A stretch of 64,000 nt of DNA from Prochlorococcus sp. AG-402-N23. GTDB taxonomy: Bacteria > Cyanobacteriota > Cyanobacteriia > PCC-6307 > Cyanobiaceae. This document shows positions 3,321 through 63,903 of this stretch, piece after piece. The stretch covers positions 1-64,000 of the forward strand of contig QCIX01000001.1 of NCBI GenBank assembly GCA_003216355.1, written 5' to 3'. The notes beneath the pieces are model-generated. The model did no database searches. It saw only the letters and a program-made list of their open reading frames with translations, and was not told the origin of the DNA. Made by a program: the position numbers and the translations under genes. Positions within the stretch are counted from its first letter, which is position 1. Each line of letters starts with the position of its first letter.

Positions 3321-4250
3321 GTGGTCAATGCTAGTCTCAATTGGGCAAGTATTGTTGGTATAGTTCTCGCTGTATGCGGAGGAGGCCTTTATTTTTTGAG
3401 GTCCTTTAAGCCTGCCTTGGCAAGGGATTATGATGTTTTCTTCGCAGCAATTGGACTTTTGTGCGGAGGAATATTATTTTTTCAAGGTTGGAGGTTAGAT
3501 CCTATCCTTCAGTTTGGTCAGTTTTTATTAGCAGGAACTACAGTTTTTTTTGCATATGAAAGTGTGCGATTGAGGGGAGTTGCTACTGATCAAGCTAGAA
3601 GGTCATCTTATTTTGATGATGATCCTATTTCTGATGTTCCCAGAAATTCTAGAGGTAGATTTAATGACGATTATGATAGGTTTGAGGAATCTGAAAGACC
3701 ATCCAGAAGATTTAAACCTCAAGAAGATGAATTTGAAGAAGAGTATACTGAGGGGAGATCTCGTAGGAGGAATGTTGCAAGAGCTATACCCTCTGCTGCA
3801 GCAAGTAGAAGTAGGCCATCTACAAGGGAAATAAGTAAGTTTGAAAATGACGAACCTATAAGAAGGAGAAGACAGACTTCTGAAGATAGAATTAGTAAAC
3901 AACCAGAAACAAATAACTTTGGTGAGAGAAGAAATTTATCTCGCGATGAAGTTAAAACAGGGTCAAGACCCAGAATGAATCGTACAGTTTCTAGACAAGA
4001 TAATATATCTGCTTCCAGTGATTCTTCTCCATTACGAAAGAAACCTACTAGATCCCCTATTAAGCAGCAAACTTCAATAGCTCAAGTAGAAGATGCTTCA
4101 TTTAAAGATGCTAATCAAGCCAAAAAACCACGTGAGACGCGGAGAGTAAGCTCTTCAGCTAGATCAAGTTCAAAAAATCAAAATAGTAGATATAACGTTG
4201 GAACAAACAAGAAGAAACCTAGAGATAACAGTTCTAGATTTGATGATTAA
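3321..4250 (+). CDS. ycf66: Ycf66 family thylakoid protein with long basic tail
   Basis: The first 90 residues form the Ycf66 domain: hydrophobic segments around residues 8-25, 40-55 and 63-80, with the motif FKPALARDYDVFFAAIGLL between the first two. From about residue 95 to 309 the protein becomes a hydrophilic tail rich in Arg, Ser, Asp and Glu, low in complexity and probably disordered. Ycf66 is conserved in cyanobacteria and some plastids; its function is unknown. The start is GTG, supported by GGAGAAAG just upstream; the nearby ATG at 3319 is in another frame. The stop codon abuts the convergent hli gene with no gap. Confidence 0.88.
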   Translation: MVNASLNWASIVGIVLAVCGGGLYFLRSFKPALARDYDVFFAAIGLLCGGILFFQGWRLDPILQFGQFLLAGTTVFFAYESVRLRGVATDQARRSSYFDDDPISDVPRNSRGRFNDDYDRFEESERPSRRFKPQEDEFEEEYTEGRSRRRNVARAIPSAAASRSRPSTREISKFENDEPIRRRRQTSEDRISKQPETNNFGERRNLSRDEVKTGSRPRMNRTVSRQDNISASSDSSPLRKKPTRSPIKQQTSIAQVEDASFKDANQAKKPRETRRVSSSARSSSKNQNSRYNVGTNKKKPRDNSSRFDD

Positions 4251-4526
4251 TTAAAAGATTCCTGCCCATTTTAAAAACGATTGTTTACTAAATAATTCAA
4301 TTAATATTATTGCAAGGAAGCCAATCATTGCAAATCTTCCATTAGTTGTTTCAGAATAACTACTCCATCCAAATTTATATTGATCTTTAATTTCTATAGA
4401 TTTATCGTCTAGTTTATTGTCTCCAATTTCTTCATTGCTGTAATTTGGATCTTTCTGCTGTGCTATAAAACTCTCATTGTCTAAATTAGTTGCTTCTGAG
4501 TTAGTTTGTTCTTCTTTAGAATTCAT
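4251..4526 (-). CDS. hli: High-light-inducible protein (Hli), 91 aa
   Basis: The C-terminal half carries the single chlorophyll-binding helix of the CAB/ELIP/HLIP family: ETTNGRFAMIGFLAIILIE at about residues 59-77, with the conserved E-x2-N-G-R-x-A-M chlorophyll-ligand pattern. The first 55 residues are an acidic, Asn- and Glu-rich extension typical of the longer Prochlorococcus Hli proteins. These proteins protect photosystem assembly intermediates and dissipate excess light energy. It lies 8 bp downstream of the ABC exporter gene on the same strand and is probably cotranscribed with it. It converges on ycf66 with directly adjacent stops. Confidence 0.92.
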   Translation of the reverse strand: MNSKEEQTNSEATNLDNESFIAQQKDPNYSNEEIGDNKLDDKSIEIKDQYKFGWSSYSETTNGRFAMIGFLAIILIELFSKQSFLKWAGIF

Positions 4527-9840: not shown

Positions 9841-11090
9841 GAATTGATTTTTAGAAAATCAATAGTATCTTTTAATTTTTCTATAAACATATCAATTTCT
9901 TCCTTATTGGTTGTGAAATTCATGCTGATTCTAGCTGTTGATTTAATTCCAATGTATCTGTGAAGAGGTTGACAGCAATGGTGGCCACTTCTGATGCAAA
10001 TTCCTTTTGAGTCAAGAATTTCAGCAATATCATTTGAATGTATATTTTTTATATAAAATGTGGCAAGTGAGGCTCTGTCTGGATCTATCTCTGGCGATGG
10101 TCCTATGATTTCAATATTTTCTATTTGATTTAATTTTTCAAATAAATATTTAGTAATTGTCTTTTCATATTCATGAATTTCATTCAATCCAATATTGTTA
10201 ATATAATTAATTGCTTCTGCAAGACCTATTGCTTCTGCAATGGCTGGAGTTCCAGCTTCAAATTTGTGTGGTAGCTCTGCCCAAGTACTTGTCTCTTCAA
10301 AAACATCTTGAATCATTTCGCCACCTCCAAAGAGAGGAGGAATTTTTTCTAGGATTTCTTTTCTTGACCAGAGGAAACCAATACCTGTAGGACCGCATAG
10401 TTTATGACCTGATCCAGCTAAAAAATCTATATTAAGATCAATCACATCCAGTTTTTGATGAGCCAAACTTTGGCATGCATCTATTAACACTAAAGAACCT
10501 TTTTGTTTGGCTAATTTAGTTATTTCTTTGATTGGATTACAGCAACCTAGAGTATTACTAATATGAACTAGGCTAACGAGTTTGGTTCTAGATGTTAGTT
10601 TTGATTTAAAGTCGTCTATATTTAATTTCCCATCTTTATCTATACCTATAAATTTTAATTTGCATTTATTTTTTGCTGCAACCATTTGCCATGGAACAAT
10701 ATTGCTATGATGCTCCATTATTGATAAGAGAATTTCATCGTTTTCTTTTAATGAATATTCGCCCCATGATCTAGCTACTAGATTGATTGCCTCAGTAGCA
10801 TTTCTTGTGAAAATAATTTCTTTTGCTGAATTCGCTTTTATATATTTGCTAATTAAATATCGTGCATTTTCAAATTCTTCTGTTGCTTTAGCACTTAATT
10901 GATGTGCCCCTCTATGTACATTGGCATTAAAGTTTTTGTAATATTCATCAATTTTTTTTAAGACTTGTATTGGTTTTTGTGTGGTTGCAGCATGGTCTAA
11001 ATAAATAATTTGCTCATTACTTTTTAATTTCTTATTTAAAAGAGGAAAGTCTTTCTTCGTTATTTCAGGAAAATTTTGAATCGTTTCCAT
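9837..11090 (-). CDS. sufS: Cysteine desulfurase SufS (group II)
   Basis: A PLP enzyme that takes sulfur from cysteine for Fe-S cluster assembly on SufBCD. Its 417 residues include YLDHAATTQKP at the N-terminus, the PLP lysine in GSGHKLCGPTG near residue 228, and the active-site loop cysteine in RSGHHCCQP near 370. The short loop identifies the SufS rather than the IscS group. It is the last gene of sufBCDS; its ATG overlaps the sufD stop by 1 nt, so translation is probably coupled. Its stop overlaps the convergent peptidase gene by 4 bp. Confidence 0.96.
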   Translation of the reverse strand: METIQNFPEITKKDFPLLNKKLKSNEQIIYLDHAATTQKPIQVLKKIDEYYKNFNANVHRGAHQLSAKATEEFENARYLISKYIKANSAKEIIFTRNATEAINLVARSWGEYSLKENDEILLSIMEHHSNIVPWQMVAAKNKCKLKFIGIDKDGKLNIDDFKSKLTSRTKLVSLVHISNTLGCCNPIKEITKLAKQKGSLVLIDACQSLAHQKLDVIDLNIDFLAGSGHKLCGPTGIGFLWSRKEILEKIPPLFGGGEMIQDVFEETSTWAELPHKFEAGTPAIAEAIGLAEAINYINNIGLNEIHEYEKTITKYLFEKLNQIENIEIIGPSPEIDPDRASLATFYIKNIHSNDIAEILDSKGICIRSGHHCCQPLHRYIGIKSTARISMNFTTNKEEIDMFIEKLKDTIDFLKINS

Positions 11091-58139: not shown

Positions 58140-58188
58140 CTCTTGTACTTGTCATAAGGTACTTTAAAGAGCTAAATTCATTCTATAT

Positions 58189-58260
<72 letters not shown>

Positions 58261-58285
58261 TTCAATTTCAAAATTTAATTTTCAG

Positions 58286-58310
58286 GAGACTTCAATAGAG
58301 GTCTTTTTTT
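58286..58310 (+). terminator. Rho-independent terminator after tRNA-Asn, inside the element
   Basis: A hairpin with stem GAGACTT (58286-58292) and AGGTCTT (58299-58305), including two G-U pairs, and a 6-base loop CAATAG, runs directly into a T tract ending at 58310. It lies just inside the left element end, so the element appears to provide the terminator for the tRNA gene it interrupted. Confidence 0.65.
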
Positions 58311-58324
58311 ATTGATTTGAAAGT

Positions 58325-58392
58325 TTGTGGTGGGGAAATGGTGGGGAAGATATAGTCTCGTGGTGGGGAAGATATAGTCTCGTGGCGGGGAA
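58325..58392 (+). repeat. Left phased repeat array, four TGGTGGGGAA copies
   Basis: Copies start at 58328, 58339, 58361 and 58383 (the last is TGGCGGGGAA), so the spacings are 11, 22 and 22 bp. 58339-58360 and 58361-58382 are an exact 22-bp tandem repeat. The first 24 bp (58325-58348) are identical to 60949-60972 at the right end. All copies have the same orientation and lie within about 65-130 bp of the left attachment repeat, as arm-type recombinase or excisionase sites would. Confidence 0.8.
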
Positions 58393-58513
58393 ATATATTG
58401 AAAGTTTTATCTAAATTCTCAAAAATTTGTTAATCAAATGTACTTCTATATTTTTTTTTGAATATGGTAGTAAAACATATTTATATTTTTTTTATAAAAA
58501 GGAATTTTCCTGG

Positions 58514-59176
58514 ATGACCTTCTTAAGAAAAAAATGGATTTTATTAGCATTTCTGAGTTTTTTACAACCTGTTGATGTATACGCGGGAATTGAAAATGAT
58601 TATAAAAGGCAGCAAATAGGTGGCGGGTGTAGTTATGATAATGCTCAATTTTATAGTGAATTTTCAAAATATTGCGTAATTGATGGATATTGGACTGAAT
58701 ATTCTAATAGTTTTAAAAGTGTACGCTCTACTGGGGTTTTAAATAGACATACAGAAGGTCTGGGATCTATAAAAAAAGTAAAAATAGAGGGCAAAAAGTT
58801 GGTTGAATATAGTTGTAAAGGAACTCTTTATTATGGTTGTAAAAGTCTTGTTAAAAAAAAGATCCTTGGGTGGAAAAGAAATTTAACTAAAGCGTATTCA
58901 TTTAATTCTACAAGTAATGGTTCTTTTAACTCTCTAATGCTTAGCGGAATAGCACAATTTAGATCTGGTAATAAGATCAAAGCAATTAAGTATTTTTCAG
59001 ACGCCATCGCAATTGATCCTGAAAATGCTGATGCCTATGCTTGGCGCGGTGAATCAAGAATGAGTGTTTCAAGGAGTAATAATGGTTGTGATGATATTGA
59101 ATTGGCAATATCAATTAACCCAAACCACTCTGGACCAAGGTATTACCATAGAATATGCAATCATAAACATTATTAA
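58514..59176 (+). CDS. Secreted TPR-repeat protein (island cargo)
   Basis: I start at ATG 58514, giving a signal peptide (MTFLRKKWILLAFLSFLQPV, then DVYAG); an earlier TTG at 58427 would add a doubtful hydrophobic peptide. The 220-residue protein has a cysteine-containing middle domain (GGCSYDNAQF, YSCKGTLYYGCKSL) and, from about residue 137, TPR-like repeats (GIAQFRSGNKIKAIKYFSDAI; short form AIAIDPENADAYAWRGESR). Lys, Ser and Tyr are frequent and composition is AT-driven. Exported TPR proteins often mediate protein contacts at the envelope. First gene of the element. Confidence 0.75.
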   Translation: MTFLRKKWILLAFLSFLQPVDVYAGIENDYKRQQIGGGCSYDNAQFYSEFSKYCVIDGYWTEYSNSFKSVRSTGVLNRHTEGLGSIKKVKIEGKKLVEYSCKGTLYYGCKSLVKKKILGWKRNLTKAYSFNSTSNGSFNSLMLSGIAQFRSGNKIKAIKYFSDAIAIDPENADAYAWRGESRMSVSRSNNGCDDIELAISINPNHSGPRYYHRICNHKHY

Positions 59177-59312
59177 AGATTGGATTGGACTAAATTTAAA
59201 CATATAAAAAATAATCTGAGTTAAGTTTTAATTGATTTCAGCGTAGTAGGGTTAATGATTTATATTTAATTCCAGATAGGTTGGACTATTAAGTTATAAA
59301 AGAAGACAGATT

Positions 59313-59729
59313 ATGAATCAAGCAATTAAAAAATTTATAAGAGATTATTTGAGATTGTTGTTTATTTGTGGGACTCCTTGGTTTTCTGAGTTTTTACCAA
59401 GAGTTGAATTTGGTGCAGAAGGATTTTTGTTATTTGGTGCTTTATTTATTGTGTTTTCACTATTTGTTCTAAATTGGTCTATCAAACTTGTGAGAATATT
59501 TGGAAAAGAAAGTATAAATTCATTATTTTATGCAGTCCCATTAAGTGCTTTCTATATGCCTTATGTAATGTTTATCATTTCAGTAGGTTCTGAGATGTCC
59601 AATTATGGTTATTACTTTATAAAAGAAGACTTTAGTGAATTCTTCTATAGAGCAAATATTAGTGGTCTTTATTACCTAATAATATTTTTTATAATAATGT
59701 TTACTTTGTATTACAAATTAAGAGACTAA
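59313..59729 (+). CDS. Island membrane protein, paralogue A
   Basis: A 138-residue protein with about four hydrophobic segments (around residues 12-27, 37-60, 73-92 and 115-133) and the internal motif FIVFSLFVLNWSIKLVRIFGKE. It opens MNQAIKKFIRDYLRLLF and ends MFTLYYKLRD. I do not recognise the family. The next gene is a clear paralogue with about half the residues identical and the same ends. The 10-15 bases before both starts (AAGAAGA-AGATT) also match, which implies tandem duplication including the leader. Confidence 0.7.
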   Translation: MNQAIKKFIRDYLRLLFICGTPWFSEFLPRVEFGAEGFLLFGALFIVFSLFVLNWSIKLVRIFGKESINSLFYAVPLSAFYMPYVMFIISVGSEMSNYGYYFIKEDFSEFFYRANISGLYYLIIFFIIMFTLYYKLRD

Positions 59730-59777
59730 TATTTACTCTATAGAACTATTAATTAAAAATCACTAAGAAGAAAGATT

Positions 59778-60188
59778 ATGAATCAAGAAATTAAAAAATT
59801 AGTGAGTGATTATTTGAGATTGTTATTTATTTTCAGCGTCCCTTGGTATTTTGAATTTCTACCACGAACTGATATTGATAATAGTCTTTTATTATTAATT
59901 TTTTTATTTATTGTGTTTTCACTATTTGTTCTCAATTTGTCTATAAAATTGGTAAAAGTTCTTGGGAAAGAAAATATATATTCAATCTTTTATGCAGTAC
60001 CATTAAGTCTTATTTGTATTCCTTATTTTGGTTTTATTGTTCAAGTTGGTTATGATTTTTCTCGATTTAATTATGAATATATAAAAAATTTTAGTGATTT
60101 CTTGAATGATGCACAAGACTCCCGTCTAAATTATCTGATAATACTTAATGCAACAATGTTTACTTCCTATTACAAATTAAGAGACTAG
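59778..60188 (+). CDS. Island membrane protein, paralogue B
   Basis: A 136-residue protein, the tandem partner of the gene at 59313: it opens MNQEIKKLVSDYLRLLF, shares FIVFSLFVLN-SIKLV in the middle and FYAVPLS, and ends MFTSYYKLRD. The central loop (RFNYEYIKNFSDF) is the most divergent part. Its stop is 3 bp from the convergent DUF805 gene. A two-component membrane complex or simple copy-number increase are both possible. Confidence 0.7.
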   Translation: MNQEIKKLVSDYLRLLFIFSVPWYFEFLPRTDIDNSLLLLIFLFIVFSLFVLNLSIKLVKVLGKENIYSIFYAVPLSLICIPYFGFIVQVGYDFSRFNYEYIKNFSDFLNDAQDSRLNYLIILNATMFTSYYKLRD

Positions 60189-60191
60189 TAT

Positions 60192-60566
60192 TTACTTTCT
60201 TGAAATTCTTAAAGGAATAAAATATATAATCAAACAACCAAATGGATTAATTATATTTAAGAAAGTCCAATACCATTTTGCTCCAGCAGACCTTAAACAT
60301 CTGACCGTAAAAGGAATTTGCGCAATGATACTTCCCCATAGATAAAACACATAAAATATTGCTAACAATTGATAGATAACGGCAATTACTTCAGAGAGAA
60401 TGCTAATTTCCATAGTTGAATATTGGATATTAAGCAGAATTTTTTTGAAAAGAGATAAGACGATAATGATTAGATAATGTAATAAATAATATTCTAAAAA
60501 TTCTCTTCTGGATGACTTTCCTTTATATTTAAAACCCTGACTCCAAACTGTTTTAAGTAAATTCAA
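60192..60566 (-). CDS. DUF805 family membrane protein (island)
   Basis: A 124-residue inner-membrane protein. The N-terminal GFKYKGKSSRREFLEYYL corresponds to the DUF805 start (Y-x-G-R-x-S-R-x-E-F), and the second half has VRCLRSAGAKWYWTFLNII, where many members read RRLHD-x-GRSGWW. Three or four spans. The family is common near prophages and toxin-like loci but has no assigned role. The start is TTG at 60566, since a stop lies in frame upstream without an ATG between them. Confidence 0.75.
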   Translation of the reverse strand: MNLLKTVWSQGFKYKGKSSRREFLEYYLLHYLIIIVLSLFKKILLNIQYSTMEISILSEVIAVIYQLLAIFYVFYLWGSIIAQIPFTVRCLRSAGAKWYWTFLNIINPFGCLIIYFIPLRISRK

Positions 60567-60751
60567 ATATTTTATTAAATTGGAGTTATATGTTTGTTTA
60601 TGATCTCATTAATCAGTTGGTTCAGGCAATTCTTTTGTAAAAAGATATTTCTTTACAACATTAACTATTAAGAAATATTTTTCAGAAATTATTTTTCTTT
60701 CCTTTATTTGCGAAGTCTTTAAAATCGCATCAGATAGTATTCTCTAAGAAA

Positions 60752-60949
60752 TTAACCTTTCGAATTACTTCTGCGGTTATCAATCCATTCTTGTATTTGA
60801 TATTTCATAAAAACCATTCTTCCTGGTGATATTTTTCTTTTAGGAGGAAATTCTCCTCTTTTGATTAGGCGATTAATTGTTGATACTGAAATTCCAAGAA
60901 GTTCTGATACTTCTTTGATGGTTATAAAAGGACGATTTTCTTTATTCAT
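60752..60949 (-). CDS. AlpA/excisionase-like helix-turn-helix protein
   Basis: A 65-residue DNA-binding protein. Residues 10-33 (TIKEVSELLGISVSTINRLI, then KRGEFP) form a MerR/AlpA-type helix-turn-helix, and PPKRKISPGRMVFMKYQIQEW is the wing region typical of AlpA and recombination directionality factors. Such proteins steer integrases towards excision and regulate element genes. Its ATG coincides with the start of the right phased repeat (60949), so those repeats lie exactly where its own operator would be. The 185 bp downstream to the DUF805 gene contains no gene. Confidence 0.88.
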   Translation of the reverse strand: MNKENRPFITIKEVSELLGISVSTINRLIKRGEFPPKRKISPGRMVFMKYQIQEWIDNRRSNSKG

Positions 60950-60972
60950 TGTGGTGGGGAAATGGTGGGGAA
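60949..60972 (+). repeat. Right phased repeat, two TGGTGGGGAA copies
   Basis: Copies start at 60952 and 60963, 11 bp apart, within a 24-bp sequence identical to 58325-58348. The following ATATAT also resembles the sequence after the last left copy (58393-58398). It lies directly upstream of the AlpA-like gene and about 70 bp inside the right attachment repeat. Confidence 0.8.
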
Positions 60973-61041
60973 ATATATCAAAATCGCAAAATTCTTATCT
61001 CATATTCAGTCATACACCTTCAGGAAACATCACCCCGACTA

Positions 61042-61055
61042 CCGCCCGGGGAGTT
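61042..61055 (+). repeat. Right attachment repeat (partial tRNA-Asn 3' end)
   Basis: An exact copy of CCGCCCGGGGAGTT from the tRNA-Asn 3' end at 58249-58262, in the same orientation, without the rest of a tRNA. This marks the right end of the integrated segment. Confidence 0.78.
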
Positions 61056-61074
61056 TATATTCCATTTCATATGA

Positions 61075-61102
61075 CCTAAAGTTAAGTCACTTGGGGTTTT
61101 TT
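61075..61102 (+). terminator. Candidate terminator, possibly the original tRNA-Asn terminator
   Basis: CCTAAAGT (61075-61082) can pair with ACTTGGGG (61089-61096) with one mismatch and one G-U, across a 6-base loop, followed by six T. Placed 20 bp after the displaced tRNA 3' end, it may be the terminator that served the tRNA before insertion. Confidence 0.45.
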
Positions 61103-61393
61103 ATTGCCATTTAATAATTTGAATTCAACCTATTGATGAGAATAGTGGTTAGCCAAGATATAATCGAGTATATTTGATACAATATTAAGAACAGTATATA
61201 GAACATCAAAAATAATCAAATTTTAGTTTATATATTATTTTTAAAAAATTAAAAATCTTTTTTTAAGAACAGTAATTGGAACGTTTACTGAATTCTCTAC
61301 AAAAATGAAAAAGCTCTTTGATTGATTTTTATTTTTTAAAATTAAGACATATTTCCGTTGCATCGTTTCAATTATTACACCATTCTGGAAATT

Positions 61394-61753
61394 CTAGTCA
61401 TCCCACATATCCTTTTTCTCTTGATCCAAATTATTCCTTTCAAGTAATTCTATTCTTTGCTTCTGAGAATCTATTTCTGCTTCAATTATGTTTTTATCGT
61501 CAATGTATTTTGTTCGTATTTCTAAGATATTTATTTCAAATTGTTCCCCAAAAAAATCTGACATTTCTCTCCATGCTTCCATTTCCTCTTCTTTGTCAAT
61601 AGTATCGTTTATCTGATGGGAAATAATTTCTAATACAAATTGTTTAAGTTCTTGATGACTCATCGATTCAACTTTTTTTTGAATGTAAAGTTCTTTAAGA
61701 GTTTCTAGTTGTTTTTTTGATAAATCAGAATAGATAATAGACTTCTTTTTCAT
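61394..61753 (-). CDS. Charged helical hypothetical protein, 119 aa
   Basis: A 119-residue protein with high Glu and Lys content. It begins MKKKSIIYSDLSKKQLETLK and continues YIQKKVESMSHQELKQFVLE, a segment that looks like a two-helix module; residues about 60-115 (EAEIDSQKQRIELLERNN) could be a coiled coil. No membrane segment or known domain. It lies just outside the right end of the element and upstream of rpaA on the opposite strand; I cannot tell from sequence whether it came with the accessory region. Confidence 0.7.
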   Translation of the reverse strand: MKKKSIIYSDLSKKQLETLKELYIQKKVESMSHQELKQFVLEIISHQINDTIDKEEEMEAWREMSDFFGEQFEINILEIRTKYIDDKNIIEAEIDSQKQRIELLERNNLDQEKKDMWDD

Positions 61754-62940: not shown

Positions 62941-63903
62941 TCATATATCTTCCATTGAAATTTTTAAAAAAGCTATTTCCCATGCCAACCTTGGTTGAAT
63001 GTTTTTTCTTAAGAGGTATTTTAAATTTTCAAGTTTTTTAACTAAACCGATATTTTTTGTTTTTCCCCACCAAATTGTTTGAATTATATTTACTAAACAA
63101 ATCTGTTCAATAATTTCTAATTTTTCTGATATTGATTTAGATATTTCTAATATTTCCAGACTATTTTTAATTGGAGAATGCAATTTACTTATAATTTCAT
63201 CTGAAAAATTATTCCAAATTTCAATATTTTTGAATAATTGATTTGGAGATCCATTTGCAGAGTTTATTAAATCTTCAAATTTTAATTGTTTATTTATCTT
63301 TAATTTAGAAGTATCTAAATATTCTTTTAAAATTGACTTTATTTGTTTACTAGAAAAAGATCTAAATCTGACGATTTGACATCTTGAGATGATCGTATCT
63401 AAGAGAAGGTTTAATTTAGATGTTAGTAAAATAAAAATGCCGTTACTAGGTTCTTCTAAGGTTTTTAAAAGGCAATTTGAGGCTGCTTCGTTTAAGAGGT
63501 GTGCATCAATAATCAAAACAATTTTTTTCCCCGAGTTTATTGATTTTTGACTAAGAAAAGTTTTGATATTACGTATTTGAGCAATTTTAATAATCTCAGA
63601 TCCACTTTTTATTGTTTTTTCAAGATCGAAACTTCCTGAACTTTTTGTTGTCAAAAGAGAATCAGGTTCGATAATTAACAAATCAGGATGGTTATTGTTT
63701 GTAATTCTCTCTTCAACTTTCTCGCTTGGTGAAGACTGTTTGAAAATCTCTTTTATAAATTGAAGAGCAGTTTGCTTTTTGTCTAATCCTTCAGCACCAT
63801 AAAATATATAACCATTAGCCAATGATTTGTTTTTAATTATGTTCTTAAGAAAGATATTGACTTCTTCATTCAAGAAAAAATTATTTTTTTTAACCGCAAT
63901 CAT
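62941..63903 (-). CDS. holB: DNA polymerase III delta' subunit
   Basis: A 320-residue clamp-loader subunit. The N-terminal region [18 protein letters not shown] aligns with the AAA+ P-loop, but the GxxGxGKT is degenerate, as is normal for delta', which does not hydrolyse [47 protein letters not shown] and the SRC motif ([11 protein letters not shown]) are present. Its ATG overlaps the stop codon of tmk by 3 nt (ATGA), so the two genes are co-translated. Confidence 0.93.

Follow-up and report, generated by a model that had tools for sequence, protein, structure and literature searches.

How does a piece of DNA that encodes no integrase come to stand between two attachment repeats at a tRNA gene? 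The question is raised by a 2.8-kb element (58249-61055) in the first 64,000 nucleotides of contig QCIX01000001.1 of Prochlorococcus sp. AG-402-N23, the stretch that we analysed as a whole and call the window. The first-pass annotation had taken the element for an insertion into the tRNA-Asn gene that was either a decayed remnant or a minimal element mobilised in trans. Comparison with relatives gives firm support to the insertion and its anatomy. Judging from those sequences, we consider it rather likely that the element is a non-autonomous integrative cassette that is mobilised in trans.

Results

Insertion at the tRNA-Asn gene

The integration target is the tRNA-Asn (GTT) gene found by ARAGORN at 58188..58261 on the plus strand. 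The 14-bp sequence of its 3' end, CCGCCCGGGGAGTT, forms the left attachment core (58249..58262, plus strand), whose junction is visible in the empty sites of relatives, and an exact copy at 61042..61055 on the same strand forms the right core. The exact repeat, already noted in the annotation, occurs in exactly two copies in the window, and none of 100 dinucleotide shuffles matched the pair, even when one mismatch was allowed. Chance boundaries were rejected on this ground.

We surveyed the flanks of the site in 200 genomes of the genus, and found the right flank in 180 and the left flank in 197. From 150 listed right-flank rows 132 were typed; the window and 17 rows that started far inside the query or had no listed partner were left out. 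Both flanks lay on one contig in 120 of the 132 typed genomes, among the matches listed. The distance between them exceeded the canonical gap by at most 100 bp in 47 genomes (in some it was below canonical) and by more, up to 10.9 kb, in 73; these figures are approximate for right matches that begin late. Twenty of the 47 short loci were retrieved; 19 have a single core and the other, L140, contains a 189-bp unit. A second core (at most one mismatch) was present in 47 of the 73 long loci, and 12 had three or more. At empty sites the tRNA-Asn gene runs directly into GAGTTTATA and then into the native flank, and the right core of the window also precedes TTTATA. The coexistence of empty and occupied sites, together with tandem arrays and with elements at these tRNA-Asn cores that carry an integrase, confirms tRNA-targeted integration, as had been proposed. 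Such coexistence was also the test by which the annotation could have been refuted. A full-size element with a tyrosine recombinase, which the annotation had suggested looking for, does exist at this site, for example the 10.3-kb element of genome G021.

Arm-type repeats and terminators

Two features of the element had been overlooked: arm-type repeats at both ends and a terminator after the tRNA. The intrinsic terminator (hairpin and T run; 58284..58307, plus strand) precedes the left arm-type sites (58328..58392, plus strand), direct repeats at 11- or 22-bp steps in which TGGTGGGGAA occurs at 58328, 58339 and 58361 and TGGCGGGGAA, the same word with one change, at 58383. The right arm-type sites (60952..60972, plus strand) consist of two copies of TGGTGGGGAA, at 60952 and 60963, with an 11-bp period, and start 90 bp before the right core. 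Together with the arm-to-core spacer (60973..61041, plus strand) and the core they form a 104-bp right end that is identical in units of G107 and G128; the flanks in G107 are 87-90% identical to those of the window. At up to one mismatch, TGGTGGGGAA has 11 matches in the window, compared with a shuffle mean of 2 and maximum of 6; five of these, including an exact match at 63063, are outside the element.

The same design recurs in relatives. From 64 loci, the window among them, we parsed out 85 units that run from core to core. Parsing requires a core with at most one mismatch, so degraded units are missed. Some loci entered the set for their arm pair, AlpA (see below) or integrase, and the shares of AlpA and integrase in it therefore do not reflect frequencies in the population. 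A tandem 8-base word with a period of 10-12 was present near the right core in 78 of 85 units, and in 71 of the 78 it lay 89-94 bp before the core. Among units longer than 900 bp the word was found in 59 of 65, against 3-6 of 65 at five control offsets, and identical 8-mer pairs in 32 against 0. The word varies between units; 34 of the 64 units longer than 430 bp have an exact copy of it at their own left end, while it matched the left ends of other loci in 160 of 4383 control pairings. Of the 85 units, 77 have a hairpin and T run no more than 85 nt from the left core; four control sets of 50 windows each gave 3-5. A hairpin and T run also comes after the tRNA in 18 of the 20 sites that are empty or short. 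We read this conserved geometry, on sequence grounds, as a putative set of core and arm sites of the lambda type, with a terminator that would stand in for that of the tRNA gene; the terminator of the element, we infer, would replace the one displaced from tRNA-Asn.

The 21-bp arm pair of the window (at most one mismatch) was found at 32 places in 18 of 266 genomes, and a reversed-pattern control at none. All 32 places adjoin tRNA-Asn-type cores, although for several right ends, which are on short contigs, the tRNA gene itself is outside the retrieved stretch. In right-end copies the core follows 92 bp after the start of the pair (91 in L160). In left-end copies it mostly precedes the pair by 77 or 88 bp, with 96 bp in L148 and 133-134 bp in L162 and L170; the left end of L153 has only a degenerate core nearby and a clear core 292 bp away.

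Candidate helper integrases

The 10.3-kb element of G021 carries the arm pair of the window, with one base different, at both ends, as well as AlpA and an intact 437-aa integrase. Relatives of the integrase occur in 24 of 265 genomes, five of them close (G021 itself, G111, G190, G035 and G050; 66-73% identity), and a tRNA-Asn-type core lies beside the integrase in these five and also in G082 and G180. Intact integrases were found in five of the 85 units (L119, L120, L122, L178 and L246), three of which (L119, L120 and L122) also encode a resolvase (PF00239); L247 and L248 have further integrases in units that are not closed by two cores. In 17 aligned integrases R, K, R and Y are invariant and H is nearly so, the R-K-HxxR-Y set of lambda-type enzymes. 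Integrase P0001 has no Pfam match at E 0.1 and a PHROGs match at 4.5e-25, and a sequence search of the PDB returned no match. Its AlphaFold model (predicted local distance difference test, pLDDT, 81; predicted template-modelling score, pTM, 0.49) has an N-terminal beta-beta-beta-alpha domain, and the best matches among solved structures are those of lambda integrase (E 3.4e-8, 12-14% identity). The candidate helper is lambda-Int-like, with an N-terminal domain of the arm-binding type, the arm binding being putative. Integrase matches were found in 110 phage records, all below 60% identity; the 20 listed are at about 23%, and none of these is from Prochlorococcus.

G190 was considered as a clean tandem of helper and satellite and rejected, as no core was found between the two. 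Tandem 11-bp words also stand near related integrases in L232 (G221) and L242 (G133), with no tRNA-Asn core in the retrieved stretch, and the arm design may therefore serve sites other than tRNA-Asn. The only PF00589 match of the window genome is a 389-aa tyrosine-recombinase-like protein (G000:C3:72743-73195, within L312). Many genomes of the genus list a PF00589 match in a 389-aa frame, and the protein is possibly a housekeeping enzyme.

AlpA and the spread of an integrase-less unit

Near its right end the element encodes a 65-aa protein of the AlpA/excisionase type (60752..60949, minus strand; Pfam HTH_17 2.3e-12, Phage_AlpA 5.1e-9; PHROG excisionase 6.4e-14), a putative recombination directionality factor. 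Relatives occur genus-wide, in 47 of 265 genomes, and in named genome records all 28 loci are from Prochlorococcus; strain MIT 9107 has an AlpA of this group. AlpA is present in 38 units, 33 of which have no integrase, and 30 of these 33 have no stop in the aligned part. In a tree of 64 columns, five integrase-linked copies and 32 others fell on two sides of one branch with a support of 100/100; the tree omits two rows of L124, that of L258 and a dissimilar AlpA of L119, four in all, and an A-type row of L247 was counted as unlinked though an integrase unit follows on its contig. The ratio of nonsynonymous to synonymous substitution rates (dN/dS), calculated without copies with stops, L124 and L258, had a median of 0.30 when 29 sequences were compared in 365 overlapping pairs; 14 disjoint pairs gave values from 0.12 to 0.55. 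Judged by the tree and these rates, the AlpA of integrase-less units is a separate lineage under purifying selection.

A unit can also spread without an integrase gene. A 987-bp unit that encodes neither integrase nor AlpA is 95-98% identical in G144, G004, G001 and G208, whereas the flanks (compared without the right flank of G208) are 83-91% identical. Since all four copies share the same integrase-less interior, loss of the integrase would have preceded the spread.

These results bear on the strongest rival explanation, which we regard as unlikely: an autonomous element, once inserted into tRNA-Asn, would have lost its integrase and become fixed, with AlpA and the arms as leftovers, a relic resembling cis-mobilizable elements (CIMEs). 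Decay does occur at this site. In L258 (G022, 3572-4368) a 57-aa integrase match and a stretch repeated in tandem accompany an A-type AlpA that diverges from the family in its second half; the unit is likely a decay intermediate, and some integrase-less units, as this locus indicates, arose by decay. The median size of integrase-less units is 1.2 kb, and 15 of the 85 units are shells of 169-257 bp. One of these, the 169-bp L061 of G107, corresponds to a crossover between the left and right arms of a window-like unit (170/180 identical, no internal gap). Some AlpA copies contain stops. The shells (L061, L055, L057, L063, L079, L088, L140, L254 and others) hold only two cores and the intervening sequence, with the arm word in most. 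Against decay stand the 30 integrase-less units with an AlpA free of stops in the aligned part, the separation of that AlpA from the integrase-linked one, its dN/dS of about 0.3 (selection that could partly predate integrase loss), and the spread of the 987-bp unit after its integrase was lost. Of the two options that the annotation left standing we favour mobilisation in trans, because an integrase-less unit spread as a discrete block and because the integrase-less units have a maintained AlpA lineage of their own; decay, as seen in L258 and L061, is possible for the window copy.

The 987-bp unit likewise speaks to a second rival, which we find improbable, that the cassette travels only in cis, when an integrase-bearing tandem neighbour excises from the outer attachment (att) sites. 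Tandem arrays exist: three or more cores stand in 12 of 73 long loci, and in G035 an integrase-bearing unit directly precedes an integrase-less one, whose AlpA has a stop. Mobilisation of CIMEs in cis has been described (PMC5704250). The 987-bp unit, in contrast, follows the tRNA directly in G001, G004 and G208, which share the tRNA on its left, and is the second unit in G144. A search of these four genomes for a P0001-type integrase found none, a result that also counts against mobilisation in trans.

AlpA proteins can regulate transcription, and in the element the start codon of AlpA has the right arms immediately upstream of it. A third rival, which we hold to be very improbable, builds on this: units would move by homologous recombination between the tRNA and the conserved flank, with AlpA as a local transcription regulator and the repeats as its operators. 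Against it, arms are present at both ends and also in units without AlpA, and the similarity of the 987-bp copies ends at the right core in all four genomes and at the left core in G144, where the left neighbour is another unit.

Cargo, right flank and a second site

The gene content is as first described. The cargo comprises a TPR-like protein of 220 aa (58514..59176, plus strand; start codon chosen by us; TPR_2 E 1.6e-5, below the Pfam gathering score), two similar small proteins of 138 and 136 aa without a Pfam family (59313..59729 and 59778..60188, plus strand), the first a membrane protein by appearance only, and a DUF805 protein (60192..60566, minus strand; Pfam); AlpA is the fifth protein. 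The two small-protein genes are tandem duplicates with about 76% DNA identity. Pfam and PHROGs searches revealed no recombinase, integrase or transfer gene among the open reading frames of the element, in agreement with the annotation, and no packaging, capsid or replication gene among its five proteins; a phage satellite (phage-inducible chromosomal islands, PICIs, and similar) was rejected on the latter ground. AlpA weakly matches the small-terminase family phrog_57 (3.6e-5) and was the only protein matched by PADLOC (to mad1), both of which we interpret as similarity of a common helix-turn-helix. An integron cassette array was judged unlikely given the tRNA-end cores, no search for integron features having been made.

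Immediately beyond the right repeat, the atypical flank at 61056..61140 does not match the usual empty-site flank, and homology with relatives restarts at about 61141. This region, which holds a terminator-like hairpin of its own, may, on weak grounds, be a left-end remnant of another unit. A DUF7326 protein is encoded immediately to the right of the element (61394-61753).

The earlier reading had also overlooked that the DUF805 gene has a relative elsewhere in the same genome, with 89% DNA identity. An island of the same plan (L311, G000:C2) lies there at a tRNA-Cys gene (10913-10985, minus strand). It contains a 1.6-kb unit bounded by a 20-bp repeat of the tRNA end, with GGATGGTAA-type words in tandem inside each end. 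DUF805 genes lie within this unit and just past it, and their DNA is in parts 86-90% identical to that of the window. From this likeness cargo seems to pass between tRNA sites.

Discussion

We propose that a larger element at the same tRNA-Asn site would provide a lambda-type tyrosine recombinase. This enzyme would bind the cassette at its arm repeats and 14-bp cores and move it as an att-to-att block, the cassette supplying its own AlpA-type directionality factor in a presumed excisionase role. The left end would restore the 3' end of the tRNA and supply a new terminator, so that insertion need not harm the host. Binding of the integrase to the arms, mobilisation in trans, AlpA as excisionase and present activity of the window copy are what we infer.

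Several observations weigh against this proposal. No excised form was seen in the genome sequences compared, and homologous recombination is also capable of moving a unit. The cargo DNA of the window was found in none of the other 264 genomes searched, which makes movement of the window unit itself a presumption, and no P0001-type integrase is present in the genome of the window, which is 81% complete. Among the five close integrase units only that of G021 has the arm word of the window, the others having similar or different words, and the fold matches of the integrase have a low overall TM-score of about 0.3 over the whole chain. No arm word was detected in seven of the 85 units, and 30 of 64 units lack the right-end word at their own left end. 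The 987-bp unit has other arms than the window and no AlpA, and the AlpA of L258, left out of the tree along with the dissimilar one of L119, would have crossed the split. Viral contigs yielded no exact arm pair and no confirmed relative of AlpA or the integrase (candidate stretches were unconfirmed).

The relatives suggest a class of cassettes that borrow their enzyme from larger elements at the same site. We tentatively put forward, as a possibility, that this class is a long-lived one of non-autonomous tRNA cassettes, the tyrosine-recombinase counterpart of miniature inverted-repeat transposable elements (MITEs) or clusters of attC sites lacking integron integrases (CALINs). Each member would have its own arm word and tRNA terminator, many their own AlpA, and the integrase would be borrowed; the cassettes would stack in arrays and shrink to arm-only shells through recombination between end repeats.

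The islands of the small Prochlorococcus genomes vary greatly between strains. A class of roughly 1-kb integrase-less cassettes with recognisable ends would, if real, account for the addition of small cargo at tRNA genes, and would be a main small-cargo gene-exchange system of Prochlorococcus. A tRNA core plus tandem words with a period of about 11 bp, some 91 bp inside, provides a signature for finding such cassettes.

Comparison with known systems

Of the known systems, tycheposons share with the cassettes the Prochlorococcus host, the tRNA target and the organisation as cargo islands. Like them, the window element lies at a tRNA 3' end with a partial tRNA repeat. Tycheposons reportedly carry a tyrosine recombinase and use seven target tRNAs (described by Hackl et al. 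in 2023). The window element has no such recombinase, in contrast to tycheposons and to some elements at its own site; this comparison is by description only. Tycheposons are also cited in PMC10872708.

PMC10187409 describes picocyanobacterial elements that lie near tRNA-Phe or tRNA-Cys and carry an atypical tyrosine integrase, in many cases accompanied by a small serine recombinase, and calls the mechanism of their mobilisation not yet known. Our units resemble them in the tyrosine integrase within a tRNA island, in the serine resolvase of L119, L120 and L122, and in the unit of the same design at tRNA-Cys in the window genome. The site here, however, is tRNA-Asn, and the likeness is one of description. 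For such islands the present results name candidate helper integrases and a testable mechanism.

CIMEs, defined in PMC5704250, and 15 Dehalococcoides ssrA islands without an integration module (PMC3146451) are, like our units, att-bounded, arranged in tandem and devoid of an integrase; hitchhiking elements of this kind are reviewed in PMC11389934. The window element keeps both att cores and has no integration or transfer genes, as CIMEs do, though it retains the excisionase-type AlpA. Unlike CIMEs, many units here keep AlpA and paired arm sites, and the integrase-less ones are small (median as above). One unit, of 987 bp, spread without a co-resident P0001-type helper. CIMEs derive by decay and move in cis; decay is seen here in L258, and the 987-bp unit suggests movement without an integrase neighbour. 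The Dehalococcoides integrase is a serine recombinase, in contrast to the enzymes here.

Additive flexible genomic islands with tRNA cassettes, in Actinomarinales (PMC7771536) and Alteromonas (PMC4119200), are similar in that cassettes with tRNA-fragment repeats are added at a tRNA; in their accessible text arm sites, terminators and helper integrases, as found here, are not described. A limited literature search, covering few subscription journals, found no paper on the tRNA-Asn gene of Prochlorococcus that deals with arm sites or with units lacking an integrase. With lambda integrase the candidate helper shares the fold, the catalytic residues and the logic of core plus arm sites. The identity to lambda integrase is low, at 12-14%, and the arms here differ in being direct repeats with a period of about 11 bp, the word of which changes from unit to unit.

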